A stretch of DNA of 64,000 nt from Ecytonucleospora hepatopenaei (Eukaryota; Microsporidia; Enterocytozoonidae): the NCBI GenBank assembly GCA_026692725.1, contig JAPMUG010000012.1:23739-87738 (forward strand), read 5' to 3'. Within the stretch, counting starts at the first letter, position 1; each line of letters opens with the position of its first letter. The translations under genes and the position numbers were made by a program. The notes under the pieces are model-generated. The model did no database searches. It was not told where the DNA came from and worked only from the letters and a program-made list of their open reading frames with translations. This document shows positions 1,616 to 57,967 of this stretch, in pieces.

Positions 1616-4600
1616 TCAAATTTTATAATGCACAATTTCACTTTTGTCATGTATTTTATACACACCAACCATTGTTTTAGCCATTTCAAACATATCATTT
1701 CTCAGTGAAATCACTATAAACTGTGCATTTATCCTTTGAATATATTGACTAATCAATGAAACATTCTTAAAATCTAATGCTGCATCAATTTCATCCATTA
1801 CGTAAAAAGATGATGGATTGTACGAATGCAGTGCAAAAATTAAAGAAAGAGACGAGAGTGTTTTTTCGCCTCCTGATAAATTTACAATGGATTTCCACGT
1901 TTTCTTTAGAACGTTCAAAATTACACCCTCTCCAAACACATCCAGTTGATTTACCAAATCAATTTCAGCACTCCCTGTGATTGTTAAGCTACTAAAAATT
2001 CTTTTTAAATGTGTGTTTATTGTGTCAAGTGCTGAAATAAAAATGTGTTGTCTTTCGTTTTTTAAGTCACAAAGTTCTTTTTTATGCTTTTTAATTTGAT
2101 CATTAAGATAGTTTATTTCATTTCTTTTATTGTCATAGGTGGCTTTAATTGACACAAATGCATCTACCAGTTCTATAATGTTACTTTCGGAAAAATCTTC
2201 TAAATCATGACTAACTTCAGAAACAATTAAATTATTTTCAATTTCTATATTTTTCATTTCATTTTCAATTCTTGTAAGATACTTTTCAAAAACCATTTCC
2301 TTTGCTTCCAATGAAGAAATCTCTTTTTTATAATCAAAAATTAAATTTTCCAAACTTTTTATTTTTTCATTACAAGTTGAAATTTCTGTTTTATTTTTCA
2401 CTTCTTTTTTAATTAAATTTTCAATTTTTATTGTGTTTTTATTGTATTCCTTAATTTTTTCATTGTACTTTTCTTTTAAATCATTGCATAAAATATTATA
2501 TTCTGTGTATTTTGATAAGATTTCTTGTTTTTTAACATCCATCTGATTTTTAGTTGATAATACTTTTTTTAATTCTTCTTTGTGTTTTTTCTTATTATCT
2601 AAAATATTTTCCATATAAAACAAAATTTCATTTTTTTCTGAATTTAAATGCTTAATGGCAGTTCTAATAGAATTAATATCCTTATTTAATTCTTCAAGGT
2701 TGTTGTTTTGTGTGAGATTTTCAATCATATGTCTATATCTTTCAATATCATTTTGCAAACTTTTAAAATGTTTATGATCTTCAAAATTTTCTTCTTCATT
2801 AGGAAGATTTTTTATCATATTTTTGTAAACAGATTCTTTGTCAATAAGTTCTTTATAAATTTCTATTTTTTTACTCAACTCCTCATTTTCATTATTGTAT
2901 ATTTTTAACATATTTAAATTTTCTTCATATTCCTTTTTAACCTTAATAAAATGTTTTCCATTATTTTTGCCCAATAGAAAATTAAAGTTATTTCCTAAAT
3001 TACTCATAATTCCAGACTTATCTAATAAAACCCCTTGTTTTGTGACAACTCTTTTTCTAGTGCCTGAATTGTACGCTAGCTGCCTTCCTTCTGTTAAATT
3101 TTCGGTTATAAACGTATTATAATCAAATAAACTCAATATTTTGCTATATTTTTTATATTCCCCTTTGATTTTAACACAATCAATAACTTTTTTACAATTA
3201 TTATAATTTATACCTGAACCATTTTTAGCCACAATTTTGTCTAAAATCACAAATGTTGTACGAGGCAAATTTTTTTGATTTATAATCTTTATCATTTCTT
3301 CTGCATCCTTAGTAGTTTCAACAATAATACTACATAAATGTGAAGTACTTGCACAAACAGCCTTTTCATACCCTTCTTCAATCTCTAACATGTTGTAAAA
3401 AACATCAACAAAACCATCCATATGCATAAAATTGTCTTTAAAATCTTTTTTGTTGTTATTTAACGCTGTTTCTTCTTCTTTTTTATAAAAAGAAAACTCA
3501 TTTATTTTTTGTCTAAGTTCAAAAATATTTTTTTCTAAAATTTTCTTTTTATTCTGTAAACTTAAAAATTCCTCTTCTAAACCTTCTTTCTTTAAATTAT
3601 TTGCTTTATAAAGCGCATTTATTTCAATTTTATATTTTTCTAAGATACTTTTTGTTTCAACATAATTTTTATATTTCTCATCCTTTTTATTAAGATCAAA
3701 AATTATTTTTTCATATTTTTCTATTTCCTGATAAACTTCTTTGTTTTTTTCTTTAAAAACTTCTATTTTTCTGTATAATGCATTTATTTTATCTTGCTTT
3801 TCATTGCAAAGGTCAACAAGATCTTCCTTTGATTTTTCTTCAAGGTGTAAATATTTGTCTTTTTCTTCTCTAGTACGAAGTTGTAGCTTTTCGCATTTTC
3901 TATTTACAACCTCATAATCAATTTCAATGTCTTCTTTTTCTTTTTGTAATTTCAAAAAAAGATCTTCAGTTTCAGTCAACTCTGTTGGTTTATGTGGCTT
4001 TTTAACATTTTTTGATAAATTTTCTTTTTCTGCAACAATCTGATTTTGTTCTTCTTTTAACTGCACTAGTCTATCATTTTCTTTTGTTAACTTACTATTT
4101 GCATTAGATTGTTCTTTATTTAAAACCTTAATTTTTTTGTTTATCTCATTTTTTTTCTCCTCCATGCTTTTATGAAAAGACATAAATTTACGCAGCATAT
4201 TTTTAAATGTATTTTCTTCTAAAGTAAAATCATCTTCTTTTATAAAAAATTCTTTTTCTAACATTTTTAATTTTTCTGTTTGAGTTTCAATCAATTCCTT
4301 TAATTCTAAAGTACCAATGCAGCTTTCAAGGTATTCCAAAAGCTGTAAAGAATCCATTAGAGAAATAGATTCAATTTCACCTTGTAAAATTAAAAATCTA
4401 TTCGTGTTTAAATTATGCCTCTTTAAAATATTTAAATATTCTGAATGTGTAATATTTTTGTTATCTATAAAATATTTACTACTGCTGTTTTTTTCATTTA
4501 GAAAACTAAAACTTCTTTTTAGAAAGAGTGCTTCGTGTTTATTTGAAATGTTCTGTGTTTCTTCATTTTGTATTTCAAACTTTATTTCCACGTACATTTC

Positions 4601-4813
4601 ACTTTCACCTTTGTAAACCAAGTCTTTCAAAGCGCTATGTCTCATTTTCTTAGCATTATATCCCAAAACAAATAAAATCGCATCTATTACATTTGATTTT
4701 CCACAACCATTAGGACCAACAATTGCAGTAAATTTACGGTCAAAAGGTCCTATCAAATGCAAATCTTTGTAACTCTTAAAGTTAAATGTTTTTATACTGT
4801 GTAAAAATAACAT
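1616..4813 (-). CDS. SMC4: Condensin ATPase subunit SMC4
   Basis: SMC4 pairs with SMC2 in condensin and compacts chromosomes in mitosis. The N-terminus carries the SMC4-type sequence FNFKSYKDLHLIGPF followed by Walker A GPNGCGKS near residue 35. A long coiled coil brackets a hinge at about residues 460-620. The C-terminal head has signature NLSGGEKTLSSLSL near residue 980 and Walker B FYVMDEIDAALD. The match to SMC4 rather than SMC1-3 rests on the N-terminal block (IGPF, then VIDAILFVLG and KKMRHS). At 1065 residues it is shorter than the 1300-1400 usual in yeast and animals, with the loss in the coils. A TACCCTTTAAAA signal lies about 25 bp before the ATG. Confidence 0.9.
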   Translation of the reverse strand: MLFLHSIKTFNFKSYKDLHLIGPFDRKFTAIVGPNGCGKSNVIDAILFVLGYNAKKMRHSALKDLVYKGESEMYVEIKFEIQNEETQNISNKHEALFLKRSFSFLNEKNSSSKYFIDNKNITHSEYLNILKRHNLNTNRFLILQGEIESISLMDSLQLLEYLESCIGTLELKELIETQTEKLKMLEKEFFIKEDDFTLEENTFKNMLRKFMSFHKSMEEKKNEINKKIKVLNKEQSNANSKLTKENDRLVQLKEEQNQIVAEKENLSKNVKKPHKPTELTETEDLFLKLQKEKEDIEIDYEVVNRKCEKLQLRTREEKDKYLHLEEKSKEDLVDLCNEKQDKINALYRKIEVFKEKNKEVYQEIEKYEKIIFDLNKKDEKYKNYVETKSILEKYKIEINALYKANNLKKEGLEEEFLSLQNKKKILEKNIFELRQKINEFSFYKKEEETALNNNKKDFKDNFMHMDGFVDVFYNMLEIEEGYEKAVCASTSHLCSIIVETTKDAEEMIKIINQKNLPRTTFVILDKIVAKNGSGINYNNCKKVIDCVKIKGEYKKYSKILSLFDYNTFITENLTEGRQLAYNSGTRKRVVTKQGVLLDKSGIMSNLGNNFNFLLGKNNGKHFIKVKKEYEENLNMLKIYNNENEELSKKIEIYKELIDKESVYKNMIKNLPNEEENFEDHKHFKSLQNDIERYRHMIENLTQNNNLEELNKDINSIRTAIKHLNSEKNEILFYMENILDNKKKHKEELKKVLSTKNQMDVKKQEILSKYTEYNILCNDLKEKYNEKIKEYNKNTIKIENLIKKEVKNKTEISTCNEKIKSLENLIFDYKKEISSLEAKEMVFEKYLTRIENEMKNIEIENNLIVSEVSHDLEDFSESNIIELVDAFVSIKATYDNKRNEINYLNDQIKKHKKELCDLKNERQHIFISALDTINTHLKRIFSSLTITGSAEIDLVNQLDVFGEGVILNVLKKTWKSIVNLSGGEKTLSSLSLIFALHSYNPSSFYVMDEIDAALDFKNVSLISQYIQRINAQFIVISLRNDMFEMAKTMVGVYKIHDKSEIVHYKI

Positions 4814-14660: not shown

Positions 14661-17600
14661 TTAAAAAGTTTCTGTGGTATATACGCTTTCCTTTTTAAGA
14701 CAACTTCTGCCTTTATTGTTCTTAAAAATCCTATAAAAAGTGTCTGTTTTGCTTATTAACCTAACAAAATTCTCATCGTGTGTAATCACAATCAACTGAA
14801 AATCTTTCTTTTGGTCAATTAAGTTGTTCAGCGTTTCTGCTAACTTTTCAGTGTTTTGTTTATCCAAAGATGTAGTTGGTTCATCCAATGTCAACATAAA
14901 TCGTGTGCTGTAATCACCGTCAATTTCACAGGTGGATGAACTAAAAGCTTCTGCAAGTGCAATTTTAAATAAAATACTTGCTATGATTTTTTGTCCAGCA
15001 GAACATCTTCCCCTCATATCAGTCTTTATCCCACTAATACACTGTACAATTTTATAATTGTAGCTTGTTGCTGTCAAATCACTAGACAGTTCAATATACT
15101 CAATATCATTTCCAGCGTATGTGTTTATCCATAAATCTTTTAAAATAATGTTTACTTCTTCCATTTTCACAGAATGATATTCTATTATGGCTTTTTCTAA
15201 CGCTGTCATGCTTTTCTTAACATCACTTAAACTCATTTCCAATATTTTTATTTCATAATAAATCTCATTGTATTTTTCTGTTGTTTTTTTAAACTTTTCA
15301 ATTTCATGCTTTCGAATTTCCTTGAAATTAGACAATTCATTCAGTTGTCCTTTTGTCTGATGTTTTAAAGATTCGATTTTAGCAATTTTCTGTATATAAG
15401 TTGTCAGTGTTTCTTTTAAAGAATCATGTTTTTCTTTATCATATTTTATTTTTCCTTTATTTTTTTCAAAAAAATCCCTCTTTTGAAAAAAATTCCCTAT
15501 AAACCTTAAACTATTGATAAATTCCTGCTTCTTAGAAATTTCTAACTGTAATTGACATGCTTTTTCGTGTACCTCTGAAAATTTCTTTTTAACTTCAAAA
15601 TACTCTGCCTGCTCTTTATCAAAACTTTTTGCAAACAAAGAATCATTTTCTATTTTTTTCTTTTCCTCCGTTGCACAGGCATATTCATTTAAAATTTTGT
15701 TGAAATCTGAAAATTTTGAATTAAATGAACTCACAAATTCATTTTGGTGTTTGTTTAGACTGTTAAAATTTTCCTTTAGTTTAGATAAATGCTTTGTTTT
15801 TTCCGATATATCAACTACTTCATTTTCTTTAAGAAATTTTTTGGCCAGGTTATATTTTTTTAACTTTTCTAGATAAGCCATGTGATTTTCCATGGTGTAA
15901 AGCTGTTTTTGCATTTCGTCTTTTTTACTTTGTTCTTGTTTCAGTAAAATTTCAACATTTTTAATTTCATTTTCCACTTCTGATAAAGATTTGTTGTTAA
16001 AATTATTTTTAGTTAATTTTTGGTTTAAGGTTTTTAATTTTTCATTATTTTTTTCTAATTTGTTTTTTCTTATGGATATATTTTCTAATAATTCTTCTTT
16101 TATCTTCAAAGTATTTTTGTTTTTATCAATAAGTTTTTCAATTTCTATCAATTTATCCTTTTCTGCCTGTAGATTATCAAATAAATGACAAGTTTTATCA
16201 TTTTTTAAGCTTATAAAATCCTTACTAATTTCATTTAATTTTTTAATAACAATATTGCATTTCTCATAAAAATCTTTGTTTTTTATTATAAGTTCAAAGT
16301 TTTTGACAAATACATCTGGGCTAGATGTTTTTGAGCAGTTAAAAACTTCTTTAATGCGGTTTAAATATTTTTTGCTTTCTAAAACTTTTCCATCACATAC
16401 AAAGCAATTTTCACAATCTTTTATCAAATCCATAATGCTTAAGTATTTTTTCATTTCAAAATATTTGAACATATTTTCTGTTTTTTGATCCGTTTGAAAC
16501 AAATCGATCAGTTTTTCTATATTTAATTTGTGATAAATTTCACCTTTTTGCAACAAATCTTTGTTTTCTCTAATTAGTCTATCAAACAAGATTATCAACT
16601 CGCTTTCTTTCCGTTTTATAACAGAATGATTAATTTCCGTTTTAAAAACTTCTTCTTGTTTTTGTTTGCAGATTTTTTCTAATTTAACATTTTCATTTTT
16701 TATTCTTTTAATTTCTTTCTTAATATCATCAGAATCTACATTAATTTCTTGTTCATAATTAATACCATCGATTGTTTTTGTAATAAAAGTAATTTCCTCC
16801 AATATTTCTTTGTGTTCTGATTCCAAAGATAAAACATGCGTTTTTCTATTTTGATTTTCATTTAAATTGCTGTTTAATAAAATAATTTTCCTTTCACACT
16901 CTTCTAGATTAGTAATTAAGTCTTCTTTTGAAAATTCTGCATTATTTTCCATCTTAAACCTTTTAAATGTCATGTCCTCTTCACACTTTTTAACAAAATC
17001 ACCATATTTCATGCATTTTTCATTATTTTTATGTATTTCTTTAATAAATTCTTCACGCTCTTTAATCTCATGTTGTTTATTTTCAATATCCTTCATCTGT
17101 TCTTGTTTAATTTTAGAGTATTTTTCGTTCATTTCATTTTTTAATGTAAACAAATCAATACTGTTGTTTATAGTTAGTTGCATGCACAAATCTTTTTTAA
17201 GATTTTCTAACTGAGAAGTTAAAAACCCAATTTTTGTGTTTAACTGCAAATATTTTTCATCTAAAACTTTCTTCTTTTCTAAATTTTCCGTTATAAAGTT
17301 AAATTTATTTTCTGCTAAAGCAACTTGTGCTTTTATTTCAGGTAAATTTATATTTTTTAAAGTTTCTTTCTGCTTTTCAATTTCTTCTTCTGTTTCTTTT
17401 ATATGCTTTTTAACATCATGTTCTTCTTTTAAATTATTAAAAAGAGCAATATTTTTATATTCACTCTTGTTTTCATATTCATCAATAATTTTCTTGCATT
17501 CTGAAAGGGTATTTTGTAAATTTTTATATTCGTTTTCCAATGTTTCTTGTTCTTTAATTTTATTTTTTAGATCATCCACTTTTGTCTTAATAATTTCTCT

Positions 17601-18392
17601 TTTAGATGATAATTTTTCTAAAAGATCCATTTTTTCATTGATAGAATTCAAGCATTCATTGTATTTTTTAACAGCCTCTTCTTTTTCAATTTTTTGCTGA
17701 AGTTCATGTCTCAAGCTTACAGTGCGCAATTCTATTTTCCTTTCAATCTCTGTTTTTGTGCTTTTCAGCTGTAAAAGTGCTTTGTTATACTGCGAACTGC
17801 AAAAAATTTCATCAAGTTTCTTTTTTAGAACAGTCGTGTCGCCTAAAGGCCAGGCTATTTCCTCCTGGTGACAAAAAATTACATTTTGTAAAATCGAAGA
17901 ATTTGTGCCAAGATAATGTGGCACCCATTTGATAACTTCTACGACTTTATCACCAATCAATTTCAAATCTTTTGATGATTCATTAAATTTATTCTCCTCT
18001 TCTCCTTCTTTGCTTTCAAATAACAAACATTCTAGAGTTCTTTGTTCAACTTTTTTAGCTTTTCGTTCACAATGTAGTGTTTTTTGAATAACATACCTTT
18101 TACCATTTTCAGAGTCAAAAATTAATTTCATTGTTGCGCGTGTGCTTATCTCCTTAGAAAAACTCGGATCAAATACAAATGCACCATTCTTGCTGTTTGG
18201 AGGTAAATCACCGGTTGTTAAATATTTTAAAATTTCAATTATTGTTGTTTTGCCACTCCCATTCTTACCAACAATCAATGTTATCGGATCTTCAAAGTCA
18301 ATTTCCCATGTTTTTGTGGCATCAAATGCTCTAATCCCACTAAGTTCTAATTTACAAAGTTTTGTTCTTTGATAATTTTCCATGTTAACCAT
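14661..18392 (-). CDS. RAD50: DNA repair ATPase RAD50
   Basis: RAD50 forms the MRN/MRX complex with Mre11, which tethers and processes DNA double-strand breaks. The N-terminus (LELSGIRAFDATKTWEIDF) leads into Walker A GKNGSGKT. A very long coiled coil is interrupted at residues 660-666 by CENCFVC, the zinc-hook CxxC that dimerises two RAD50 molecules. The C-terminal head contains RGRCSAGQKIIASI (signature, near residue 1127) and LTLDEPTTSLD (Walker B and D-loop). Length, 1243 residues, is nearly full size, unlike the trimmed SMC proteins here. It is divergent from Spn1 with 36 bp between starts. A second Met (MENYQRTK) three codons on is an alternative start. Confidence 0.93.
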   Translation of the reverse strand: MVNMENYQRTKLCKLELSGIRAFDATKTWEIDFEDPITLIVGKNGSGKTTIIEILKYLTTGDLPPNSKNGAFVFDPSFSKEISTRATMKLIFDSENGKRYVIQKTLHCERKAKKVEQRTLECLLFESKEGEEENKFNESSKDLKLIGDKVVEVIKWVPHYLGTNSSILQNVIFCHQEEIAWPLGDTTVLKKKLDEIFCSSQYNKALLQLKSTKTEIERKIELRTVSLRHELQQKIEKEEAVKKYNECLNSINEKMDLLEKLSSKREIIKTKVDDLKNKIKEQETLENEYKNLQNTLSECKKIIDEYENKSEYKNIALFNNLKEEHDVKKHIKETEEEIEKQKETLKNINLPEIKAQVALAENKFNFITENLEKKKVLDEKYLQLNTKIGFLTSQLENLKKDLCMQLTINNSIDLFTLKNEMNEKYSKIKQEQMKDIENKQHEIKEREEFIKEIHKNNEKCMKYGDFVKKCEEDMTFKRFKMENNAEFSKEDLITNLEECERKIILLNSNLNENQNRKTHVLSLESEHKEILEEITFITKTIDGINYEQEINVDSDDIKKEIKRIKNENVKLEKICKQKQEEVFKTEINHSVIKRKESELIILFDRLIRENKDLLQKGEIYHKLNIEKLIDLFQTDQKTENMFKYFEMKKYLSIMDLIKDCENCFVCDGKVLESKKYLNRIKEVFNCSKTSSPDVFVKNFELIIKNKDFYEKCNIVIKKLNEISKDFISLKNDKTCHLFDNLQAEKDKLIEIEKLIDKNKNTLKIKEELLENISIRKNKLEKNNEKLKTLNQKLTKNNFNNKSLSEVENEIKNVEILLKQEQSKKDEMQKQLYTMENHMAYLEKLKKYNLAKKFLKENEVVDISEKTKHLSKLKENFNSLNKHQNEFVSSFNSKFSDFNKILNEYACATEEKKKIENDSLFAKSFDKEQAEYFEVKKKFSEVHEKACQLQLEISKKQEFINSLRFIGNFFQKRDFFEKNKGKIKYDKEKHDSLKETLTTYIQKIAKIESLKHQTKGQLNELSNFKEIRKHEIEKFKKTTEKYNEIYYEIKILEMSLSDVKKSMTALEKAIIEYHSVKMEEVNIILKDLWINTYAGNDIEYIELSSDLTATSYNYKIVQCISGIKTDMRGRCSAGQKIIASILFKIALAEAFSSSTCEIDGDYSTRFMLTLDEPTTSLDKQNTEKLAETLNNLIDQKKDFQLIVITHDENFVRLISKTDTFYRIFKNNKGRSCLKKESVYTTETF

Positions 18393-20669: not shown

Positions 20670-23600
20670 ATGAAATTAGAAAAAGTCATTGTGAAAAATT
20701 TTAAAAGTTATGTGGGTGAATATCTTTTGGGGCCTTTTGATAATTTTACGTGTATTATTGGACCTAATGGTTCGGGAAAATCAAATATTTTGGATGCCAT
20801 AACATTTGCATTAAATGTAAATATTCAACACCTTAGAGTAAATCATGCCACTGAATTTGTCAGTGTTGGACAGGAAGAATGCTTTGTTAACTTGTATATA
20901 AATGTCGATGGTGGTTTAAAGGTGTTTAGCAAAACATTTAACGCAAAAAAGCATAATTACGTATATAAAGTAAATGAATGTCAAAAGTCTAGCAAACAGT
21001 ATACCTTAGAACTTGAAAAATTAAACATTTTTTCTAAAATCAGAAATTTTATAATTTATCAAGGAATGCTTATAAATAGTAAAATGGATTTGTTTCAGGC
21101 AATTGAAAATATTTCTGGGTCTATAAATTTTAAAGAAGAATACGATAAATTAAAAGAAAATTATGTGGCCTGTAACAAAGAGTTACAGCAAAAACAGGAA
21201 AGAAAAAAAGACATTTTAAATGACTTAAATGAAGCTAACGATGCAAAGGAAAAAGAAGTGCAGTTTGTAAAAAACATGAATGCTTTGGAAGAATTAAAAG
21301 GCAAGATGTTTGTGTATGAAATTGCGTCAAAACTAAAAAATTCGAAAAGGATAGAAGATTTGTCTGCGATGTACAGGAAAGAAAGTGAAAAGATAATAAA
21401 TAACCCTGAATATGATTCATTAAATCAAGAAATTTTATGTTTAAAACAAAAATCAACACAGCAATTTCAGGCTATTTTTGAGATGGAAACTGAAATAAAG
21501 TGTATTAGATCAGATGATTTAAAAGCAAGGAAAAATAATGAAAAAGAATTGGGTGAAGAAATATCTAACATTAAAAAGAATTTAGAAAGATTAAGACCGC
21601 AAATTGATTATCAAAAATACAATCCTACAATTTCCTTTGAAGAATGCAAGAACACTTTTTTAAACGAATTAGAACAAGCTAAAATTGTTTACAATGAGCA
21701 GACAGAAAACTATCAAAAAGAAGAAAGTAAACTAATGTTGGATAATTTTGAGGCTGTTGCAAAAAAAGAGGAGTGCTTAATGGAAATTAAGAAATACAAG
21801 GAAAAGAAAGAAAGACTCATCAAAGAAAATAAAAGAATTGAAATTGAAAATAAAAACAAAAAGGAACAAATTTTAAAAATTGAAAGACAAATTGTTGATT
21901 TAACACAAAAAGCTTCACCTGATGCTTTGGAACAACTAAAATCACTGGATAAGGAAATTGTCGGTTTAGAAAATAATTTAAATGACATAACAAAAGAAAT
22001 TTTATTATTTAAGGCAAAAAATGTTGTAAATAAAAACGAAATTTTTGTGTCTAATGTTATTGAAAATTTGAAAGCCGTGAATCCTGGTGTTTTGGGAAGT
22101 GTCAGTAGTCTCATAAAACCCTCTCAGAAAAAGTTTGAAATTCCTATAGCTGTTTTAATGCAAAAACATGCAAACTCGGTTATTGTTGAAAATGAGGATG
22201 TTGCTTTGGAATGCATTTTGTATCTTAAGGAAACAAAATCATGTAAGCTAACTTTCTTAACACTAAACAAATTTAAAGTTAATACAGATGTGGTAGTTGG
22301 TGATGACATGTTTTTAAATCCACTAAATTGTATTGTGTGCGACAACAAATATTTAGGAGTGGCACAATTTTTATTTCATGCTAAGGTAATAGCGGAAAAT
22401 AGTAATTTTGAGAATAAAAATATTGGTAACTTTAAGGCTATTGCTACACTAAATGGTATTTTATATCAACAAAATGGTTTGATAACCGGTGGTAACATAA
22501 CAACTAATAAATTTGAAGAAAATAAAATTTCTGAATTAACGATGGAAAGAACTAAAATAATTAACAAGATTAAAAATCTTAAGACTAAAAAAGATGGATT
22601 TACAGGTATTAATTTTATATTGGAAAAGATCAAGGAATTAGAAAAGACAAAAAATGAAATTGTTTTTGAAAAACTACATGAAATTGAAGAATGTTTAAAA
22701 GATGTAGATGTTTTGAATTTAGAAGCAACTTTAATGAAATTTTCTGAAAATTTAAAAGAATTCGAGTATGAAAGGCAGTTTGTTAGGGAAAACATGAGGA
22801 AAAAAGAGAAAGAACTTATTTTACCTATTCTAAGAAAAACAGGCTTCAATTCTGTGTGTGAATTTACAACAAGTTTAAAAGAAGATGAAAAAAGATTTGA
22901 CTTGGAAGAAAAATTGCATGTTTTGGAGCAAAAGTATGCTGAAATTCTAAAAATTAATGCCGAAAAAAGCAATGAAAAGGAAAATTTTAACAAGGCGTTG
23001 GAATTAGAGAAAAAACTACATTTAATGCAACAAGAATTTGAAATTAACAAACAAACACTTAAGGCCAAAGAATTTGATTTTAAGGAATTTTTACATAAGT
23101 TAGAAATTGCTAAAAATAAGCTTTTTAACATTTCTTTGTCAAAATCAAAAAACGAAGAAGAAATCAATGACATTTTGAATTTTTGTAGACTTGAAACCGA
23201 TTTTTCTTCTATTGATGAGATAACATCAACTAATTTATATAAAGAAATTGAAAATAAAAATGAGGTTATGCTACTTAGAGATTTGAACGACCTTAAAAAA
23301 GAAAAGAACAGATTGGAATCATGTTTGTCCAATAATGCGACTTTACACATAAAAGATAATTCTTTGGAAGCAAAGTATTTGAAGTTTAACAGAGAATTTG
23401 AGTTTGCTAAAGAAAGTGCACAGAGGGCAAAGGAACATTTTAATGAAATTGCAGTGGAGAGAAAAAAGTTATTTGATGTTTATTTTGAAAAATTGCAACG
23501 AAAAATAAATGAAATTTATAAAAAACTGGCATATGTTAATACAGAATGTAGAGACGACGAAAATGAATGTGCTAAAGTCGTAAAGGAAGGAGATATTTTT

Positions 23601-23942
23601 AGTCCTGGTAATAAAGTAAAGTTTTATGTAGTTCCACCTGGTAAAGGATATTGTGAATTTACAGAATTAAGTGGCGGAGAAAGAAGTTTGGCTGCATTAT
23701 CATTTTTGTTTGCATTACAAAAAACACCACCTTTTTACGTACTTGATGAAGTAGACGCGGCCTTAGACCGTAAAAATGTAGAGAATTTGGTTAATTACAT
23801 AAAAAATGAGGCAACTACAAAGCAATTTATAGTTATTTCATTAAAGGATTATTTTTTTAAAGAAGCAGATGGTTTGTTAGGCGTTTATAAAGATCAAGCA
23901 CAAAATAGATCAAGAATATTGACATATAAGCTTGTTAATTAG
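20670..23942 (+). CDS. SMC1: Cohesin ATPase subunit SMC1
   Basis: SMC1 pairs with SMC3 in cohesin, which holds sister chromatids together. The start (VIVKNFKSYVGEYLLGPF, then Walker A GPNGSGKS, then ILDAITFALN and LRV) follows the SMC1 pattern rather than SMC4. The hinge, about residues 470-620, reads VSSLIKPSQKKFEIPIAVLM, comparable to the SMC1 block containing PTQKKYQIAV. The C-terminal head has ELSGGERSLAALSFLF near residue 1000 and FYVLDEVDAALD. At 1090 residues it is shorter than the usual 1230. TTTTACCCTCTCTATG gives a clear start. Confidence 0.9.
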   Translation: MKLEKVIVKNFKSYVGEYLLGPFDNFTCIIGPNGSGKSNILDAITFALNVNIQHLRVNHATEFVSVGQEECFVNLYINVDGGLKVFSKTFNAKKHNYVYKVNECQKSSKQYTLELEKLNIFSKIRNFIIYQGMLINSKMDLFQAIENISGSINFKEEYDKLKENYVACNKELQQKQERKKDILNDLNEANDAKEKEVQFVKNMNALEELKGKMFVYEIASKLKNSKRIEDLSAMYRKESEKIINNPEYDSLNQEILCLKQKSTQQFQAIFEMETEIKCIRSDDLKARKNNEKELGEEISNIKKNLERLRPQIDYQKYNPTISFEECKNTFLNELEQAKIVYNEQTENYQKEESKLMLDNFEAVAKKEECLMEIKKYKEKKERLIKENKRIEIENKNKKEQILKIERQIVDLTQKASPDALEQLKSLDKEIVGLENNLNDITKEILLFKAKNVVNKNEIFVSNVIENLKAVNPGVLGSVSSLIKPSQKKFEIPIAVLMQKHANSVIVENEDVALECILYLKETKSCKLTFLTLNKFKVNTDVVVGDDMFLNPLNCIVCDNKYLGVAQFLFHAKVIAENSNFENKNIGNFKAIATLNGILYQQNGLITGGNITTNKFEENKISELTMERTKIINKIKNLKTKKDGFTGINFILEKIKELEKTKNEIVFEKLHEIEECLKDVDVLNLEATLMKFSENLKEFEYERQFVRENMRKKEKELILPILRKTGFNSVCEFTTSLKEDEKRFDLEEKLHVLEQKYAEILKINAEKSNEKENFNKALELEKKLHLMQQEFEINKQTLKAKEFDFKEFLHKLEIAKNKLFNISLSKSKNEEEINDILNFCRLETDFSSIDEITSTNLYKEIENKNEVMLLRDLNDLKKEKNRLESCLSNNATLHIKDNSLEAKYLKFNREFEFAKESAQRAKEHFNEIAVERKKLFDVYFEKLQRKINEIYKKLAYVNTECRDDENECAKVVKEGDIFSPGNKVKFYVVPPGKGYCEFTELSGGERSLAALSFLFALQKTPPFYVLDEVDAALDRKNVENLVNYIKNEATTKQFIVISLKDYFFKEADGLLGVYKDQAQNRSRILTYKLVN

Positions 23943-37487: not shown

Positions 37488-39146
37488 ATGATAAAAGGTG
37501 AAATTTTTCTTTTGATAGGAATTTACTTAAAATACGATGTTATAAATTATTATGAGATTTTGGTTCTTAAAGATACAACTGAAATAATTTTTAAAGTTGA
37601 CCACTTCATGGACGATGACATATTGTATGGTGAATTTTGCGAGGGAGATTTTATTAGAATCATAAAGAAGGATGGGGGAGTTGTTTTTGAAATTTCACAG
37701 GAAAAATTTAAGGTTAACCGGAATCTATGCAAACAAATAAAAGAAAAATATGACTCAACATATCAGCTAATTGAGAATAGAAGGATGCCATTTTTAAACG
37801 ATACTTTGCCATTTACCAACAAAAAAACAATAAAAAGCGAGATAAATGGCATTACTTCAGTCGAATTGCAGCCTGTAAATATAAATGGAATATTTCAAGG
37901 AAAGTTTAAGGTTTTGGGTCAGAACAACCAGGAAGTAGCAGCACAAAATGTTATAGGTAACGAAATTGGGCCTATAAAGTCTGCTTTAAACAAGCCATTC
38001 GTTGCAAAAATTCAGCAAAAAACACGCATAAACACAATTCCAAACAAATTCAATCCCTTCTTTTTTATAATAGCATCATCTAGCAATATTTTGGTAAAGA
38101 TAGTTTTTTGGAAGGAACAGATAGCAAAATATTCAGAGCTAAATGTTGGAGACATAGTTTTGATAAATTCGTTTAAGAAGTATAATAGTCCTTTTAAAGT
38201 TGAAAAATTAATATACAATACATTTACAGAATCTGTTTATTTTTCGTGCCAGGCAATTAGAGCAAATACGCTGTATAAGGTAGAAAGTGATTTTTTTCAT
38301 AAAAACAACAAAATAATAAGATTGTTTAAAACAATACATGGGGATGTGGTGTATTCCTCAATGATTTTCAGACACAACCATGCCAATTCATTTTTACAGT
38401 TTAAATACATCAAATTAAATTGTGAAGGAGAAGTCATTTACGTCGTGTTGTTTTACAACTCACAAAAGGAATTTTACAATTTGGACAAAAACAGCATCAT
38501 TTTGCATGAAATGAGAAGAATAGACAGGGGAGGGTTAGTTTTTTACGTAAGTACGATCTACACGCAAATAGAAATTACCGGTCGATCAACCCCAAAACCA
38601 ACGCTGTATTACGACAGTTTCCAAAACGGAGGCATAGGATCTTTTGACGATATAAAGTGCGTTCATGGCGGTATAGGATACATTCCTGATAGTTTTAAGG
38701 ATGTAGAAGAGTTATGTCCAACTGTTGAAATTGTCAAAGGCAAGGATATTAGCACAGACATGTTTATGCCACCATATAAAACAACACTAGAAGAAATAAT
38801 GGTAATAAATACAGCAAAAAGCACATTTGTGTTCAAACTGGCGCTCAATGAGGTTAAAAAGTTTTATTTCATGGCAACAATCACAGGAATAGAAAAGGCA
38901 GATGTGGTTTTTGATTACGTTGAAAGAACAGAAAACCACAAAGAAATTTTAAAACAACAGGAAGCACACAAAATAATTTTAGATAGCAAATATTTTGTTC
39001 ATTATACGGATAATTTATTTTATGACACACAGTTATTTGATAAAATATGTGAAAGTATAGGCGATAAGAAGGTGATATTTGTCGATGCTATACGTATCAG
39101 TTCAAAAGAAACATTTTTGGTGATAACAGGCATATTAAGTATTTGA
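37488..39146 (+). CDS. OB-fold candidate, possibly ssDNA binding
   Basis: The 552-residue product starts after TGACCCTGA. The segment ILVKIVFWKEQIAKYSELNVGD and following VLINSFKKYN (about residues 200-240) has the strand-turn pattern of RPA or RADX-type OB folds, and the N-terminal 80 residues could be another. It lacks the C4 zinc finger of RPA1, so it is not a standard Rfa1. No catalytic motif or membrane span is seen. A role with the recombination genes of this window is possible but unproven. Confidence 0.55.
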   Translation: MIKGEIFLLIGIYLKYDVINYYEILVLKDTTEIIFKVDHFMDDDILYGEFCEGDFIRIIKKDGGVVFEISQEKFKVNRNLCKQIKEKYDSTYQLIENRRMPFLNDTLPFTNKKTIKSEINGITSVELQPVNINGIFQGKFKVLGQNNQEVAAQNVIGNEIGPIKSALNKPFVAKIQQKTRINTIPNKFNPFFFIIASSSNILVKIVFWKEQIAKYSELNVGDIVLINSFKKYNSPFKVEKLIYNTFTESVYFSCQAIRANTLYKVESDFFHKNNKIIRLFKTIHGDVVYSSMIFRHNHANSFLQFKYIKLNCEGEVIYVVLFYNSQKEFYNLDKNSIILHEMRRIDRGGLVFYVSTIYTQIEITGRSTPKPTLYYDSFQNGGIGSFDDIKCVHGGIGYIPDSFKDVEELCPTVEIVKGKDISTDMFMPPYKTTLEEIMVINTAKSTFVFKLALNEVKKFYFMATITGIEKADVVFDYVERTENHKEILKQQEAHKIILDSKYFVHYTDNLFYDTQLFDKICESIGDKKVIFVDAIRISSKETFLVITGILSI

Positions 39147-45796: not shown

Positions 45797-48631
45797 TTAT
45801 TTGTCGTTTTTTAAAAATGCTAAAATATCAGCACCTTTTTCCTTAAAATCAGTTACATTATGCGGTGTTATCAATAAAAGTTGAATGTTTTCCTTGCCTG
45901 CAAAATCAAAAATCAGTTCAATTGCTTTTTTTCTGTTTGTTGCATCCATAAACACATCAAACTCATCTAAAATCTTAAAAGGACACCTAAAAACCTTCCA
46001 CATGGAAAGCAAAAGACAGGTTCCTGCAAATGTTCTTTCTCCACCTGAAAGTGTATTTTTATCTCCTTTTATTTCATTTTTGTGAACTTTCATGTTAAGT
46101 TCAAGCTTTTTTATGTCGTGGTGAAATACAAGCTCACCTTCATAGTTTGATTCTTTTGTCAATTTTTTAAATTCATCTGCAATTTCAATTGTTTTTACAT
46201 TTTTAATTTCTTCTTTTTTGTGTTTTCTCGCTTCAATAGCATCATTTGTTTGTTTTAGCGTATCATCAAACGTTTTTAAAATTTGCATCAACTTTGACCT
46301 GACAGACTCGGCGTGATCAATTTTTTCTTGAATTTCTTCCTTAGTGCCAATTTCCTTTGCCTGTAAAAGTTTGGCTTTTATTTCCGCTCTTTCTGTTTTT
46401 ATTGCGTCCACACTTCTTGTTGTACTTACTTCATGTCCACTTTCTTTCTTTTTTAAATCTATAAATTCAACAATTTCTTGCTTTTCGTTTTCTATCCGTC
46501 TTATATCATGCTCCAATCTGCCCTGTTTCATCCTAGTTTCATTTAATTGGGTTATTTTGCTATTTTCTAACAATCTGATATTTCTTCTTATCTCACTATT
46601 TTTTTGTTCAATCTCTTCTAGTTCTCTAACCAGTTTTTCTCTTAATTCTATGTTTTTTTCGTACTTTTCTTTAACCATTTTATTTTGCTGGTTTAAAATT
46701 TGTAACTTCTTCTCAATTTTTTCAAACTCATCATCTTTAAACTCATCGTATGTTTGTAGCTCCAATGTATTTTCATTTATTGCGTCCAAAAGTTTACCAA
46801 CTTTTATTTTTTCCTTAGCAATCATCTTTTTGTACTCTAAATATTCTTTTTGTGCCTCTGATTGTAGTGTTAATTTAGATAATCGGTTTTCAATTGTATT
46901 TATAAGTGTTTTATTATCTTCAAAAAACGTATTTCTTTCAATATTTCTCTCTGTAAAATCAGAAAAAGAATTTCCAAACCTTTTTATTTTGTCGCCTGCA
47001 GGCAAATAAACACAATTTACACCAAGTGACGTGTTTTTTGCTATTTCATACGCTTCTTTTCTTTCTTCACACAATACACTTTCCTCTACATTGTGCATCG
47101 TAATAAGCACTTTTTCGATGCATGGGTGATTTATTTTCAAAACATCCAAAAGTGTTTTATGCGTATGTCTTTTTGTAAATTCAATACGATTTTTATTAGA
47201 AAGCAAAAGAACACTCCCACGCTCAAAGTTAGCATCCTTGAACAGTCTCTGCAACAAGTTTTTATCATTCTGGTTAAAAACAACAAAACTACCAAAAGAA
47301 CCTTTTGTAACTACCATTGCAACCCTTCTCCATATTCTTTCTGTTACATCCATACACTCACAAATTGGTCCTAAAATCTCATCCTGAAAAAGATGACTGT
47401 TTTTTGCTATCTGTTGTTTTATTCCAGTAAAACGTCTCAAAACCTTTTCCCTTTCACTTTGGGATTTGCTTGATTTTAGCACCTCCAGCTCTCTCTGTTT
47501 TTGCTCTATTTCTTTTTTGATTAAACTATTTCTTTCTTGTTCTTGTAAATGCTTACTATAAATCTCTTTTTCACTATCTTCCAGACCTGTCAATATATTT
47601 TTATGTTTGTTAAGTTTATCATTCAATAGCTTTTGCATTTCCTCAAGCTTTTGCTTGCTGCTTCGAGCCTTTTTTTGTTCTAAATCTTGCTTTTTATCCC
47701 CAAACTCTTTTGAAAAAATCTCTATGTCTGTTTTTAGTTGTGCAACTTCCCTTTCTACTTTGTAAATTTTTTGTCTCAATTCCTCGGTTGGTAGTTCTTT
47801 GTTTATTTCCAAGTCTTTGCTTAAATTTACCATATACTCAACACACTTTTGTAGTTCTAATTTTTTAGATTGTAAATTATTCTCTTTTTCCCTTAGAGCA
47901 GATTGAAGATTGTGTATTTCAACCCACTTCTCTTCATTTTCCAAGTTTAAAAGCATCTGAGGATGGTCCATGGATACAAAATCCAAATCTCTTTTTAAAC
48001 ATTCTTTTTCTTTTAATGTATTTTCTAATCTCTCTTGTGTTTGCTTTATTTTAACAACCATTTCCTCTATTTTGGCTTGTCCTTCAAAAATCTCTTCTTC
48101 CAAAGACTTAAAGTCAGATCCTTCATAATAAAAATTGTATAGATCCCTTGCCGAGGAATCACTTAAAATTCTCTTTGAGTTGTCCTGTGTTAGAAAATTG
48201 ATGGGGTTTGTAAAGTTTAGCGACATTTCGTCCATAAAATGTTTGAATTTTATACTTGAAAGCTTTTCTTTCCTGTTACCAACCTCTATAAACAGCTCAC
48301 TAGGCTTATTTCTGTGAACTTTTTTAACTATAGTAATTTCTCCCTGGTCATAAATCAACTTTTTATGGTTGTTTATGGTAACCTTTATAACACAGAAATC
48401 CTTACCCGTTCTTATAAAATCGTTTAAAGTCTGTCTGCCCATAAGCTGCGCTCTTAAACCAAACACAACGCCAATAGCCATCATGACGGTGCTCTTTCCA
48501 CTTCCATTAGCTCCTGTTAAGCAAGTTACTTTTTTGTTAAATTCCACTTTCATGTTTTCGTGTATCATAAAATTTTCCATTACAACCCGTTTAATAAGAA
48601 TTTGAATGTTATTTTTATTTTCTTTGTCCAT
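45797..48631 (-). CDS. SMC6: SMC6, SMC5/6 complex ATPase
   Basis: SMC6 works with SMC5 in recombination intermediates and replication-fork repair. The N-terminus IKRVVMENFMIHENMKVEF (family LRNFMCH), Walker A GANGSGKS and NPINFLTQDNSKRILSDSSA (family CVLTQEMSKQFL) identify SMC6. The hinge lies at about residues 415-560. The head has TLSGGERTFAGTCLLLSMW near residue 860 and FKILDEFDVFMDATNRKKA, the DEFDV-MD form being SMC6-specific. Its 944 residues compare with about 1100 in other eukaryotes. Most of the loss is in the coils. Confidence 0.92.
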   Translation of the reverse strand: MDKENKNNIQILIKRVVMENFMIHENMKVEFNKKVTCLTGANGSGKSTVMMAIGVVFGLRAQLMGRQTLNDFIRTGKDFCVIKVTINNHKKLIYDQGEITIVKKVHRNKPSELFIEVGNRKEKLSSIKFKHFMDEMSLNFTNPINFLTQDNSKRILSDSSARDLYNFYYEGSDFKSLEEEIFEGQAKIEEMVVKIKQTQERLENTLKEKECLKRDLDFVSMDHPQMLLNLENEEKWVEIHNLQSALREKENNLQSKKLELQKCVEYMVNLSKDLEINKELPTEELRQKIYKVEREVAQLKTDIEIFSKEFGDKKQDLEQKKARSSKQKLEEMQKLLNDKLNKHKNILTGLEDSEKEIYSKHLQEQERNSLIKKEIEQKQRELEVLKSSKSQSEREKVLRRFTGIKQQIAKNSHLFQDEILGPICECMDVTERIWRRVAMVVTKGSFGSFVVFNQNDKNLLQRLFKDANFERGSVLLLSNKNRIEFTKRHTHKTLLDVLKINHPCIEKVLITMHNVEESVLCEERKEAYEIAKNTSLGVNCVYLPAGDKIKRFGNSFSDFTERNIERNTFFEDNKTLINTIENRLSKLTLQSEAQKEYLEYKKMIAKEKIKVGKLLDAINENTLELQTYDEFKDDEFEKIEKKLQILNQQNKMVKEKYEKNIELREKLVRELEEIEQKNSEIRRNIRLLENSKITQLNETRMKQGRLEHDIRRIENEKQEIVEFIDLKKKESGHEVSTTRSVDAIKTERAEIKAKLLQAKEIGTKEEIQEKIDHAESVRSKLMQILKTFDDTLKQTNDAIEARKHKKEEIKNVKTIEIADEFKKLTKESNYEGELVFHHDIKKLELNMKVHKNEIKGDKNTLSGGERTFAGTCLLLSMWKVFRCPFKILDEFDVFMDATNRKKAIELIFDFAGKENIQLLLITPHNVTDFKEKGADILAFLKNDK

Positions 48632-53323: not shown

Positions 53324-54019
53324 TCAATAATTAAAATTTTTACAAAAATTATATATTTTCAATGCTCTATTCTCTCCTATTACATACATTTTCCCTCTTT
53401 CCTCATATTTTATATTTGAAATCTCCTTAATTGATATTTCTTTGTATAGATTATAAATTGTTTTATATTTTATTGCTATTGCCTTAGAAATTGATGCTGA
53501 TATTTCCATGCACTCATTAAGAACACTTTCAAGCAATTCTAGCGAAGTATTTGCACATTTCTTAACATTGACAGAAGGTTCTTTGTGCTTTAAAGCTTCG
53601 TGAATGCAGTTTATAAGGTCCATAAAATCTGTGCTTGTTTCCACATAAAAAATATTCTGTTTGTTTGTTATCTGCATGTCGTAAATATGCTTGTTTATTG
53701 AATCAATTATATTTGAACAGTCTTCAATTTTAGAATCATTTATTGCTTCTTCTTTATTGACTAAATCCTTGTATGCTTTTGCTTGTTTGCGTTTATTTAA
53801 CTTTATAAATTCTTCTTTACCAAAAATACAAACAAAATTACCATGTATATTTTGTTTTTTAACATCTTTATAAAAAAATATTTCCAATTCTATGCTTTTT
53901 CCTTCAAAATCAATTATTATTGTGTTTCTATCGTGATAAGTATAAATAAATTCTATATTTTGTGTATTCAGTAAAAGATAGCTTAAAATTCTAGGCATAA
54001 ATACATGTAGAAATGACAT
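53324..54019 (-). CDS. Possible Eme1/Mms4 or ERCC4-like protein
   Basis: The C-terminal part of this 231-residue protein (ISASISKAIAIKYKTIYNLY, then GENRALKIYNF) has the double helix-hairpin-helix pattern of Eme1/Mms4 and XPF-type structure-specific nucleases. The upstream part could be a degenerate nuclease-like fold, but the catalytic ERKxxxD is absent, as in the non-catalytic partner subunits Eme1 and Ercc1. If correct it would partner Mus81 in resolving recombination intermediates. The evidence is one motif, so this is tentative. Confidence 0.5.
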   Translation of the reverse strand: MSFLHVFMPRILSYLLLNTQNIEFIYTYHDRNTIIIDFEGKSIELEIFFYKDVKKQNIHGNFVCIFGKEEFIKLNKRKQAKAYKDLVNKEEAINDSKIEDCSNIIDSINKHIYDMQITNKQNIFYVETSTDFMDLINCIHEALKHKEPSVNVKKCANTSLELLESVLNECMEISASISKAIAIKYKTIYNLYKEISIKEISNIKYEERGKMYVIGENRALKIYNFCKNFNY

Positions 54020-55406: not shown

Positions 55407-57077
55407 TTATTGTAAAATAAATTTATGTAAGGTTTTTGTTGTTGCAATTAAATGCACGCCTTCAGTTGTTGTGTCTGTGATAATATACGCCATTTCAAAA
55501 ACGTCGTTTTTCCTAACATCTGGTGCATTCCACCATGTCAGTAAGCATTCTTCTGTTTCATCTGAAATTACCATTTTTGTAAATTTCTGAACAAAAATGT
55601 CCTCTTTTTTAATCTCTTTATTTGCCTTTTTCGCCATAAAACACGCTTTTTCATATTCTTCCTCAAGGTTTCTGGTAATTTTTTTATAGTTTCCTATCTT
55701 CAGTAAATTTCCTTCTTCAACCACCCTAATAATTTTAAATCTTATAGCAGGAACTATGCCACAACCAATTTGTATTCTTCTAATTTCAGTTAAAAAACAA
55801 ATTTTTTTCTTAAGCCCCAATGGTAAATTCGTATTGCACTTTCTCCAATTATTATATTTAAGGTTAAAATTATTTATTTCATTATTTTCATCTTCCTTTG
55901 CTTCCATCCCAAATACATGTAATTTATCCCCAAACCCAAATTGTTTTAATTGTTCTTTGGTCCTAACATCCATTCCTACCTTAAAACTACAAAAACCATC
56001 ATACAAAACTGCATTGTTTTCTGATATTCCTAAAAAACCCAATACACAATATTTATAGCTGGAAATTTCCTTGCTAATTACCATTTTATAATAAGAACAA
56101 ATGTTTTTTAATTTTAAACCAACCATTTCTATCATCTTTTCTTCGAATTCGTATGTTTCTACAGGATTAAGCACAAAATGCAACCATGCCCATTTGAATT
56201 GTTCTCCAATATCATCAATGGAATGCTTACTTGCGTATAAATCCACAATTTTGTCATACAATTCCATCATCTTAATGGTATGTCTTAACTTTTGCGTAAC
56301 ATGACCCTTTTGCGGACAGTTGTATTTTCTTATGGGTACACCCCTGGGTTGATTTTTTGATATTTCTATAGTATATTTGCCTTCTTTTTTAACAATTCCT
56401 GTTTTTTCAATTTTTTTGTTTTTTCCTGTTTTAAACCCTAAAAAACTATTTTCTTCTTTAGGTTTTTTGACCTGAAGATTGTCTACAGAAAAAATAGTTT
56501 TCTCTCCACTCACTTCCAATTTTCTGTCCAGACTGCTCTTTTCTCTACTTTCAAGTTCAACATTTTCTGTGTAAAATTTTGATTTTTCTATTTCATAATC
56601 CTCTTTATTTATAAAAATATCCTTGTTTTTCCCCGTTTTAAACAGACAAAGCATTTCATCATTCTCTTTGCTTTCATTTGCACCTTTAACTTGTTTCATT
56701 TTAAAATCAATGGATTCGTTTGAATAGTTCCACTCAATAGCATTATTTGCATCTTTTTCTAAACTATCACTACCCCACTCCATTTGAGTAATTTCCTTAA
56801 TTAAAAGAGCAGACTCAGGTTCTGTGTCAAAATCAAGAGGCATACTTTGGGAAAAGGCTTTATTTATGGTAGAACTCTTTTGCTTTTTGCACATTGAATC
56901 GTCTGTGTTTGTGTTACATTCAGTCAATACACTTAATTTACTATTTGTATTTTTAGATTCAATTGATACTTGCGAATGGTCTTCTGTATTAAACTCCAAA
57001 CAAGAAGATTCCTCAATCTCTTTTTCTGTTTCAAAGGAAATACATGAATCTAAAAAAGAAGAATTTGAATGGTTCAT
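55407..57077 (-). CDS. BRCA2: BRCA2-like recombination mediator
   Basis: BRCA2 loads Rad51 onto ssDNA. Two BRC-like motifs, FKTGKNKDIF (residues 146-155) and FKTGKNKKIE (215-224), follow the F-x-T-A/G...K core. From about residue 280 the DNA-binding region is recognisable: a helical part with FKWAWLHFVLNPVE, an OB1 part (YCVLGFLGISENNAVLYDGF and KLHVFGMEA), then LPLGLKKKICFLTEIRRIQI leading to PAIRFKIIRVVEEG, which aligns with the OB2 entry of human BRCA2. A short helical insert (residues 468-490) replaces the tower. ECLLTWWNAPD and LIATTKTLHKF match the end of OB2. OB3 is absent. The 556 residues compare with 3418 in humans. TAAACCCTCTTTATG gives the start. Confidence 0.75.
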   Translation of the reverse strand: MNHSNSSFLDSCISFETEKEIEESSCLEFNTEDHSQVSIESKNTNSKLSVLTECNTNTDDSMCKKQKSSTINKAFSQSMPLDFDTEPESALLIKEITQMEWGSDSLEKDANNAIEWNYSNESIDFKMKQVKGANESKENDEMLCLFKTGKNKDIFINKEDYEIEKSKFYTENVELESREKSSLDRKLEVSGEKTIFSVDNLQVKKPKEENSFLGFKTGKNKKIEKTGIVKKEGKYTIEISKNQPRGVPIRKYNCPQKGHVTQKLRHTIKMMELYDKIVDLYASKHSIDDIGEQFKWAWLHFVLNPVETYEFEEKMIEMVGLKLKNICSYYKMVISKEISSYKYCVLGFLGISENNAVLYDGFCSFKVGMDVRTKEQLKQFGFGDKLHVFGMEAKEDENNEINNFNLKYNNWRKCNTNLPLGLKKKICFLTEIRRIQIGCGIVPAIRFKIIRVVEEGNLLKIGNYKKITRNLEEEYEKACFMAKKANKEIKKEDIFVQKFTKMVISDETEECLLTWWNAPDVRKNDVFEMAYIITDTTTEGVHLIATTKTLHKFILQ

Positions 57078-57301
57078 AAAGAGGGTTTATTTTTAAATAT
57101 TTTATGTTATTTTGAAAGATAAATGATTTTAAACATTACATTTTTTTATATAAATAAACTTTAACTTATAATATTTTTCAGCATAAACACAGATACCTTA
57201 ATATGGAAAATAAAAATAAGTAAAATGTTATAAATTTAGTTAAACATAAAGTTTTTACATTACATCTTTAATTAATAATTTTCATCTTTTATTACCCTTT
57301 C
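57078..57301. promoter_or_regulatory. Divergent spacer, BRCA2-like and HEI10-like
   Basis: This 224-bp AT-rich spacer separates the two divergent recombination genes, with an ACCC signal at each end: AACCCTCTTTATG reading left and ATTACCCTTTCATG reading right. No ORF or RNA is seen. Co-regulation is plausible but not shown. Confidence 0.5.
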
Positions 57302-57967
57302 ATGTTTCTTAAATGTAATAACAAAAAATGCAGAAATGATATTAAAAGCAAATATTACCTGACTAAGTGCAAACATATTTTTTGTGAAAATTGTATCAAT
57401 AAATTAAATAAGAAGAAAAAGTGTTTGCGGTGTTTGTCTAAAATACATGAAAATGTCAAGGTAAAAAAGTTTGTACGTCTAAATTTATGCGGTTATTCTT
57501 TAGGTTATTTACACGATGTATTAAAGGAAGCAACAGATTTTTTTATGAGCCAAATAATAGATGAAATGAAATTTATCAAGGATCATTCGCGAAACGAAAT
57601 GATTTCTTCTTCAGAAATATCTAATAAGAATCAAAAATACACTAAAAGTGAACTTTTTGAAGTTGTTTCTTCTTCAAGTTCTTTAGGATATGTTTCAATT
57701 GACAAATCTGTGGATGATGAAGAGATACGTATAAAAAAAGAAGTCAACAAAACCATAGATAATAAAAAAAGAGTAAAAGCAACTAGTTCTTTCTCTAAAA
57801 ATAAAACTAAAAAAACCAAACTTCTTCCTGAAAATTTAAAAACAGCACAAAAACTAATTTTAACCAACTTAATAAAAAAACAAAAAACATGCAATAGCAA
57901 AAATTGTTCAGATAATGAGAAAGAGGAAGTTCCAAGGTATATTGTAGACTCAGAAGAAAAAAACTAA
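57302..57967 (+). CDS. HEI10/Zip3-like RING protein
   Basis: The N-terminal RING (CNNKKCRNDIKSKYYLTKCK, then HIFCENC, and CLRC at 41-44) has C-x4-C-x12-C-x-H-x2-C spacing identical to human HEI10 (CNYRKC to CSHIFC). The following VKKFVRLNLCGYSLGYLHDV and ATDFFMSQIIDEM match the HEI10 linker and coiled-coil start. HEI10/Zip3 proteins are meiotic SUMO/ubiquitin ligases that mark crossover sites. The second half (ESNKxQK-type Ser/Lys-rich) is disordered. At 221 residues it is compact. Other small RING proteins are possible, but the spacing is unusual. Confidence 0.62.
   Translation: MFLKCNNKKCRNDIKSKYYLTKCKHIFCENCINKLNKKKKCLRCLSKIHENVKVKKFVRLNLCGYSLGYLHDVLKEATDFFMSQIIDEMKFIKDHSRNEMISSSEISNKNQKYTKSELFEVVSSSSSLGYVSIDKSVDDEEIRIKKEVNKTIDNKKRVKATSSFSKNKTKKTKLLPENLKTAQKLILTNLIKKQKTCNSKNCSDNEKEEVPRYIVDSEEKN

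Follow-up and report, generated by a model that had tools for sequence, protein, structure and literature searches.

A BRCA2 homologue and a HEI10-like RING protein encoded head to head in the microsporidian Ecytonucleospora hepatopenaei

INTRODUCTION

Does a microsporidian keep a BRCA2- and HEI10-type machinery for homologous recombination, and does that machinery serve meiosis? This question is raised by two genes that lie head to head in a 64,000-nucleotide stretch of the Ecytonucleospora hepatopenaei genome (GenBank assembly GCA_026692725.1, contig JAPMUG010000012.1, positions 23,739 to 87,738 of the forward strand; referred to here as the window, with coordinates counted from its first base). 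An annotation made from the sequence alone (the original prediction) had described their products as a BRCA2-like protein and a HEI10-like RING protein and had proposed retained, possibly meiotic, recombination under joint control. Here, we report that the first gene encodes a BRCA2 homologue, and profile comparisons support that the second encodes a protein of the HEI10/Zip3/RNF212 kind. Together with partner genes found in the genome, the pair is best read as belonging to a minimal, Rad51-only recombination pathway that is probably meiotic and that has kept a HEI10-type protein without MutS-gamma.

RESULTS

The first protein is a BRCA2 homologue

The 556-residue protein has diverged too far for its helical-OB1-OB2 region to be detected from the single sequence, and the region becomes detectable once relatives and the fold are included. 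With the protein alone, no Pfam family scored above its cut-off (the BRC family PF00634 reached an E value of 0.31 at residues 211-223, below cut-off), and a search of PDB sequences returned six sequences, with ETV6 fusions best at E 0.021 and BRCA2 not among them. An NCBIfam scan gave nothing above cut-off for this protein or its RING neighbour, and a scan of viral contigs found no relatives of the 556-residue protein. Searching 5.8 billion proteins, with the 8,000 best candidates scored, we recovered the protein itself and three relatives, namely P0002 (50% identity over 100% of the protein), P0003 (54% over 75%), and the most distant one, P0004 (30% over 61%; E 1.3e-32). P0004 matches PF09103 (BRCA-2_OB1) above cut-off at E 1.2e-14; P0002 and P0003 match the same family below cut-off (2e-4 and 3e-4), as P0002 does the Pfam BRC repeat (E 0.003). 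In addition, the first three of the four PDB sequence matches of P0004 are BRCA2-DSS1 structures.

Profiles built from these sequences point the same way to different degrees. Against PDB, the full-length family profile gave one unrelated match (E 0.72), and a C-terminal profile gave two matches, both to BRCA2, but at E values of 0.23 and 0.36. Using HHalign, the four sequences aligned colinearly with OB1-OB2 of the BRCA2 structure 1miu over 159 columns (E 1.1e-5, probability 82%), a score reached by none of 100 shuffles. Without P0004, the alignment fell to E 0.0057 and a probability of 6%, still with 0 of 100 shuffles reaching the score; when only the window protein was aligned, 7 of 100 shuffles did so.

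An AlphaFold2 model from the four sequences has a mean predicted local distance difference test score (pLDDT) of 46.7; its block means are 60-84 for residues 261-410 and 56-76 for residues 451-500. In a Foldseek search with this model, ranks 1-3 of 666 matches (E up to 10) were 1mje, 1iyj, and 1miu, all BRCA2-DSS1 structures, so that, with PF09103 matched by P0004, the BRCA2 identity withstood a profile and fold test set beforehand. VIA-align ranked the same three structures first; 1mje scored 1.0 above the RPA70N rows, and 1iyj and 1miu were tied with these rows on OB1 alone. RPA70N and POT1 OB folds thus follow closely behind BRCA2 in the fold lists, as might be expected of an RPA-like or other OB-fold protein. 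We consider that identity very improbable, given that the PF09103 match of P0004 counts against it, three BRCA2 chains top both fold lists, the alignment to 1mje runs from the helical region to OB2, and BRC-like motifs are present in all four sequences.

A compact BRCA2 without OB3 and with a probably reduced tower

The protein consists of a disordered N-terminus, two BRC-like motifs, a helical domain, OB1, and OB2 (Table 1). The two motifs named in the original prediction were confirmed and form the strongest repeat within the protein, with 8 of 10 positions identical compared with 6 of 10 in the best of 40 shuffles; the pattern Fx[ST][AG] occurs twice in one protein in 3.2% of 20,000 shuffles. 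Both motifs stand out within a poorly conserved half of the protein, and P0004 keeps only one. They match Fx[ST][AG] and fail Fx[ST][AG]xG as well as the longer consensus; Gly stands where Ala is usual, and Asn occupies the place of the second Gly of the published consensus Fx[ST][AG]xG.

The helical, OB1, and OB2 regions are likewise borne out by the relatives' profiles and the fold. The Pfam helical model matched none of the four sequences, and the helical domain is assigned from the predicted model only. No Pfam match to OB3 was found in the window protein or its relatives, and the protein terminates with OB2, leaving no room for OB3. At the place of the tower, the model has a 14-residue helix between strands at 464-468 and 494-505 (block means of 68-76 at 461-490, with low confidence on both sides). 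The VIA-align match spans model residues 272-542 (271 residues); in 1mje, it covers 2516-2928, which by numbering is 413 residues. The tower place is short between conserved blocks in all four aligned sequences, with all alignment rows retained. From the model, it appears likely that the tower was lost and a stub remains, with the reservation that the model lies below pLDDT 50 at 416-452 and from 503.

The window protein shares with the fungal BRCA2/Brh2 proteins of Ustilago maydis, Cryptococcus neoformans, and Naganishia liquefaciens, as far as described in the part of PMC10684384 available, a helical domain, OB1 and OB2, the lack of OB3, and few BRC motifs of the FxT[GAV] type. Both the lack of OB3 and FxxG-type BRC motifs had already been described in fungi. 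The window protein is about half the size of these proteins (roughly 1,000 residues), and the Naganishia BRCA2 model has a tower of antiparallel helices where the window protein has a single helix, so that this group may be peculiar in having the stub. We found no mention of a missing tower in the available portion of this fungal BRCA2 literature (PMC10684384).

In the N-terminus (residues 13-86), we also observed short [ILV]xFx[ST][ED] motifs, a pattern picked after the sequences had been inspected. The window protein (P0001) and P0002 have three each, as many as occurred in 0.1% and 0.3% of their shuffles, respectively; P0003 has one and P0004 none. Judged from sequence, they may represent another type of binding motif.

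Profiles place the RING protein close to HEI10

The second protein contains a PF14634 (zf-RING_5) match above cut-off (E 3e-8). The original prediction had credited it with the exact cysteine/histidine spacing of HEI10, which was not borne out. The RING reads C-x4-C-x12-C-x1-H-x2-C-x2-C-x9-C-x2-C, compared with C-x4-C-x12-C-x1-H-x2-C-x2-H-x11-C-x2-C in human HEI10; six of seven spacings are equal, the long loop is 9 rather than 11 residues, and the sixth ligand is Cys rather than His.

Three relatives were found (P0006, P0007, and P0008), of which P0007 lacks approximately the first 20 RING residues (its contig has 928 bases). The outcome of PDB searches depended on how many sequences were used. 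The single sequence matched a variety of RING proteins, among which PCGF5, RNF4, and PCGF1 ranked higher than HEI10; a three-sequence profile placed RNF4 first and HEI10 second; and the four-sequence profile placed human HEI10 (CCNB1IP1, 9ges_A) at the top of the 20 PDB sequences with E values up to 1, at E 5.1e-9, compared with 6.1e-7 for a two-RING RNF4 construct. The HEI10 match is one stretch (residues 3-151) that covers the RING and the post-RING part, and HEI10 is the sole member of HEI10/Zip3/RNF212 among the 20 sequences listed. Aligned to HEI10 on its own using hhalign, the post-RING part scored 21.4, and none of 200 shuffles reached this score (best, 17.2).

A preprint names eight tetramer-core residues of HEI10 (PMC13174674, in the part available). 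The residue type is kept in all four sequences at Y72, L77, F95, and W96; in the aligned register, it is not kept at core residues V76, P82, L86, and L93 or at fibre-contact residues L105 and Y109. The predicted model (mean pLDDT 53.1) contains the RING, a helix at 67-109, and a C-terminal helix. With human HEI10, the protein shares an N-terminal RING, a linker aromatic residue and Leu, a helix with Phe-Phe at the place of F95-W96, and a mostly disordered tail; it differs, besides the RING spacing, in that the post-RING helix is predicted for 67-109 only and in having a C-terminal helix of its own.

Fold searches confirmed the RING and did not single out HEI10 from other RINGs. This result, the single-sequence ranking, and the lead of RNF4 with three sequences would fit another coiled-coil RING ligase, for example of the RNF4, BRE1, or spliceosomal type, rather than a HEI10/Zip3 relative. 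We regard this as improbable, if less so than the RPA-like identity of the first protein, since HEI10 ranks first with four sequences in one stretch across the RING and post-RING parts and the post-RING part alone outscores every shuffle. The HEI10-like assignment is thus supported by profile, including the post-RING part, and not specifically by the fold searches.

The core KLILxNLI of the C-terminal helix is invariant in the window RING protein and its three relatives (P0005-P0008). The tail motifs of the mammalian proteins are instead Phe-rich patches and a basic tip, according to the part of PMC13174674 available.

Partner genes in the genome

The genome comprises 3,094,744 bases on 13 contigs. 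It contains four full-length small-subunit ribosomal RNA genes, each scoring 1186.6 bits against the microsporidian model, which was the best of its clan for the single gene (L001) scanned against all Rfam; these fits bear out a microsporidian origin.

Partner genes were sought by a six-frame search of the genome, which cannot prove absence. We found Spo11 with both domains, Mnd1, and Rad52. In the genome search, Hop2 scored 24 bits (cut-off, 22.8); in a scan of whole open reading frames (ORFs), it scored 20.2 bits, below cut-off. The Rad51 family is represented by one gene from one candidate, which curated cut-offs assign to Rad51 rather than to Dmc1. MutS domain V occurs in two genes of three candidates, one encoding 1,028 residues with domain I and one encoding 736 residues for which the best six PDB matches are Msh2. 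Dmc1, Msh4, and Msh5 were not found in this search. Searches for PF09169, DSS1 (PF05160), and HORMA (PF02301) were silent along with all their controls and are uninformative. The search for Sec63/Mer3 (PF02889) gave no match, and its control was detected in 1 of 14 cases; because a microsporidian is expected to have at least one Sec63-domain gene, we take this silence as insensitivity rather than absence. Spo11, Hop2, Mnd1, Rad51, and Rad52 support the proposal of retained recombination, and loading of Dmc1 by the BRCA2-like protein becomes inapplicable if the genome has a single Rad51-family gene, as found here.

In this Rad51, residues 81-84 (FQSA) retain a polymer motif of the FxxA type, so that BRC-type competition may still take place. 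In the same protein (L005, 1492-2499, minus strand), Ile and Ser occupy the places of human RAD51 V189 and A190. If V189 lines the Ala pocket, Ile and Ser at these places could be the counterpart of the Gly of the BRC-like motifs. An Ala-to-Gly change in a tetrapeptide was reported to carry an approximately sixfold cost (PMC4855620, in the part available).

Gene layout and adjacency

Both genes are real ORFs, encoding 556 and 221 residues, and are arranged head to head as predicted, with 224 bp from start codon to start codon (Table 1). A CCC box lies within 20 bases of the start in both genes. Of the 37 ORFs in the window with 200 residues or more, 16 have such a box, compared with 5.4% of all plus-strand ATGs, and its presence near each of the two starts supports both start codons as real. 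The G+C content of the window is 28.6%.

Regarding conservation of the pair, P0002 is listed on a single contig, 7,852 bases in length, and the longer of the two contigs listed for P0006 also has 7,852 bases. Because these lengths are equal to the base, P0002 and P0006 very likely lie on one contig, and adjacency, order and orientation aside, is probably conserved in one relative. The longest contigs of P0003, P0004, P0007, and P0008 have 4982, 4170, 928, and 123149 bases, none of them equal. Divergent arrangements make up 10 of 36 neighbouring pairs among window ORFs of at least 200 residues, with gaps of 47 to 1,048 bp. Since divergent pairs are ordinary here and each gene has its own CCC box, joint control was not borne out, and we did not adopt a shared promoter controlling both genes.

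Table 1. Features of the gene pair and SMC/Rad50-type genes in the window
Feature	Position	Strand	Basis
BRCA2-like gene, 556 aa	55407..57077	-	ORF; relatives P0002-P0004; PF09103 in P0004; Foldseek
OB2, residues ~440-556, C-terminal	55410..55760	-	Profile match to 1miu; VIA-align to 1mje as far as 542
Putative tower stub, one helix, residues 471-484	55626..55667	-	DSSP of predicted model
OB1, residues ~344-413	55839..56048	-	Model strands; PF09103 in relatives; profile match to 1miu
Helical domain, residues ~259-334	56076..56303	-	Model helices, pLDDT block means 60-83 from residue 261; VIA-align to 1mje from 272
BRC-like motif 2, FKTGKNKKI, residues 215-223	56409..56435	-	Kept in P0002, P0003, P0004
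BRC-like motif 1, FKTGKNKDI, residues 146-154	56616..56642	-	Same place in P0002, P0003
Divergent spacer, 224 bp	57078..57301		CCC box just before each start codon
CCC boxes in spacer	57083-57085; 57295-57297	-; +	One per gene
HEI10-like RING gene, 221 aa	57302..57967	+	PF14634; four-sequence profile against PDB
C3HC4 RING finger, residues 5-44	57314..57433	+	PF14634; cysteine/histidine spacing
Post-RING linker and helix, residues 55-109	57464..57628	+	Matches HEI10 tetramer core region; hhalign; residue mapping; helix 67-109 modelled
Conserved C-terminal helix, residues 174-197, KLILxNLI core	57821..57892	+	Alignment; helix 179-197 modelled, low confidence
SMC/Rad50-type genes	1616-4813; 14661-18392; 20670-23942; 45797-48631	-; -; +; -	

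DISCUSSION

We believe with good confidence that the products of the two genes act together in a single, pared-down pathway of homologous recombination. The two FxTG-type BRC motifs of the BRCA2-like protein would most likely bind the genome's single Rad51, which the protein would cap or deliver to single-stranded DNA held by the helical-OB1-OB2 region; without OB3 and, as appears likely, without the tower, this holding of DNA would differ from that by vertebrate BRCA2. The RING protein would most likely use its post-RING linker and helix to assemble into an oligomer like that of HEI10 and would serve at recombination sites as a ligase for ubiquitin or SUMO, in a lineage in which Msh4-Msh5 and Dmc1 were not found. 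Such an arrangement resembles Drosophila, where the Zip3-like RING proteins Vilya and Narya work in an animal without Msh4-Msh5 (PMC6336347 and PMC4703084, in the parts available).

The main competing explanation is that both proteins are true homologues that serve only mitotic double-strand break repair and ubiquitin signalling, with meiosis lost or rare and the adjacency due to chance in a compact genome. A genome with one Rad51, with Rad52, and in which Dmc1, Msh4, and Msh5 were not found would suit such a role, and the gaps and orientations in the window make the pair's arrangement ordinary. Moreover, cell-cycle control was the first process to which human HEI10 was linked, and in light of this link the family need not be meiotic only. 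We nevertheless consider a purely mitotic role rather unlikely, because Spo11, Hop2, and Mnd1 are present and HEI10-type proteins act in meiotic recombination (PMC13174674 and PMC6336347, in the parts available). Msh4, Msh5, and Dmc1 are missing in Encephalitozoon as well (PMC2488364; for Dmc1 also PMC3170485; both in the parts available). What speaks against a pathway lacking Dmc1 is that PMC2866331, in its available part, counts Dmc1 among the genes reported from microsporidia. A more specific version of the Rad51-only, probably meiotic pathway is only tentative: microsporidia would carry out crossing over with no more than Spo11, a single Rad51, a BRCA2 lacking the tower, and a HEI10-like ligase, and with neither Dmc1 nor Msh4-Msh5. 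In this version, a HEI10-type assembly would work without its usual MutS-gamma client, the divergent pair would be conserved, and the FxTG motif would be adapted to a matching Rad51 pocket.

A 2007 inventory of repair proteins in Encephalitozoon, with budding yeast as the yardstick, reported that more than half of those for recombination repair were missing (PMC1851970), and a structure-based study in 2022 identified many of the repair components that had seemed absent (PMC9053307); neither text, as far as available, contains a word that starts with BRCA. BRCA2 is absent from Ascomycota (PMC10684384), and a BRCA2-type Rad51 loader would for this reason be invisible to a yeast-based inventory. 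Fanconi proteins, including BRCA2, have been surveyed in early diverging fungi (PMC11061109), and in PMC13174016 BRCA2 occurs only in the title of a reference, again in the portions available. We found no description of a microsporidian BRCA2 or HEI10 in the open-access literature, although subscription papers, supplementary tables, and database annotation lie outside this scope and the evidence for novelty is accordingly weak. By keeping a stripped-down relative of BRCA2, a DNA repair protein linked to cancer, next to a relative of the crossover protein HEI10, this strongly reduced fungal parasite represents a small system for minimal recombination machinery, and the pair offers a small natural test of the requirements of HEI10. 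A HEI10-type protein where Msh4, Msh5, and Dmc1 were not found would also make microsporidian sex testable through stage-specific expression.

Other genes in the window

Close to the pair, a gene for a 231-residue protein (53324-54019, minus strand) has weak Pfam matches only, all below cut-off (DUF3846, HEPN_AbiV, Rpp20, and GCK). A DUF5088 protein (37488-39146, plus strand) has a weak match to OB1 of SHLD2 (shieldin), at E 8e-4 and below cut-off. Of apparently at least seven SMC/Rad50-type genes in the genome, four lie in a 47-kb part of the window (Table 1). The total is a lower bound, with 13 of 24 candidates scored, the 13 matches grouped by us into genes, and an eighth match of 618 residues on contig 5 excluded. 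Under uniform placement of seven genes, such clustering was reached in approximately 0.05% of trials, for a pattern that had been noticed before the test.
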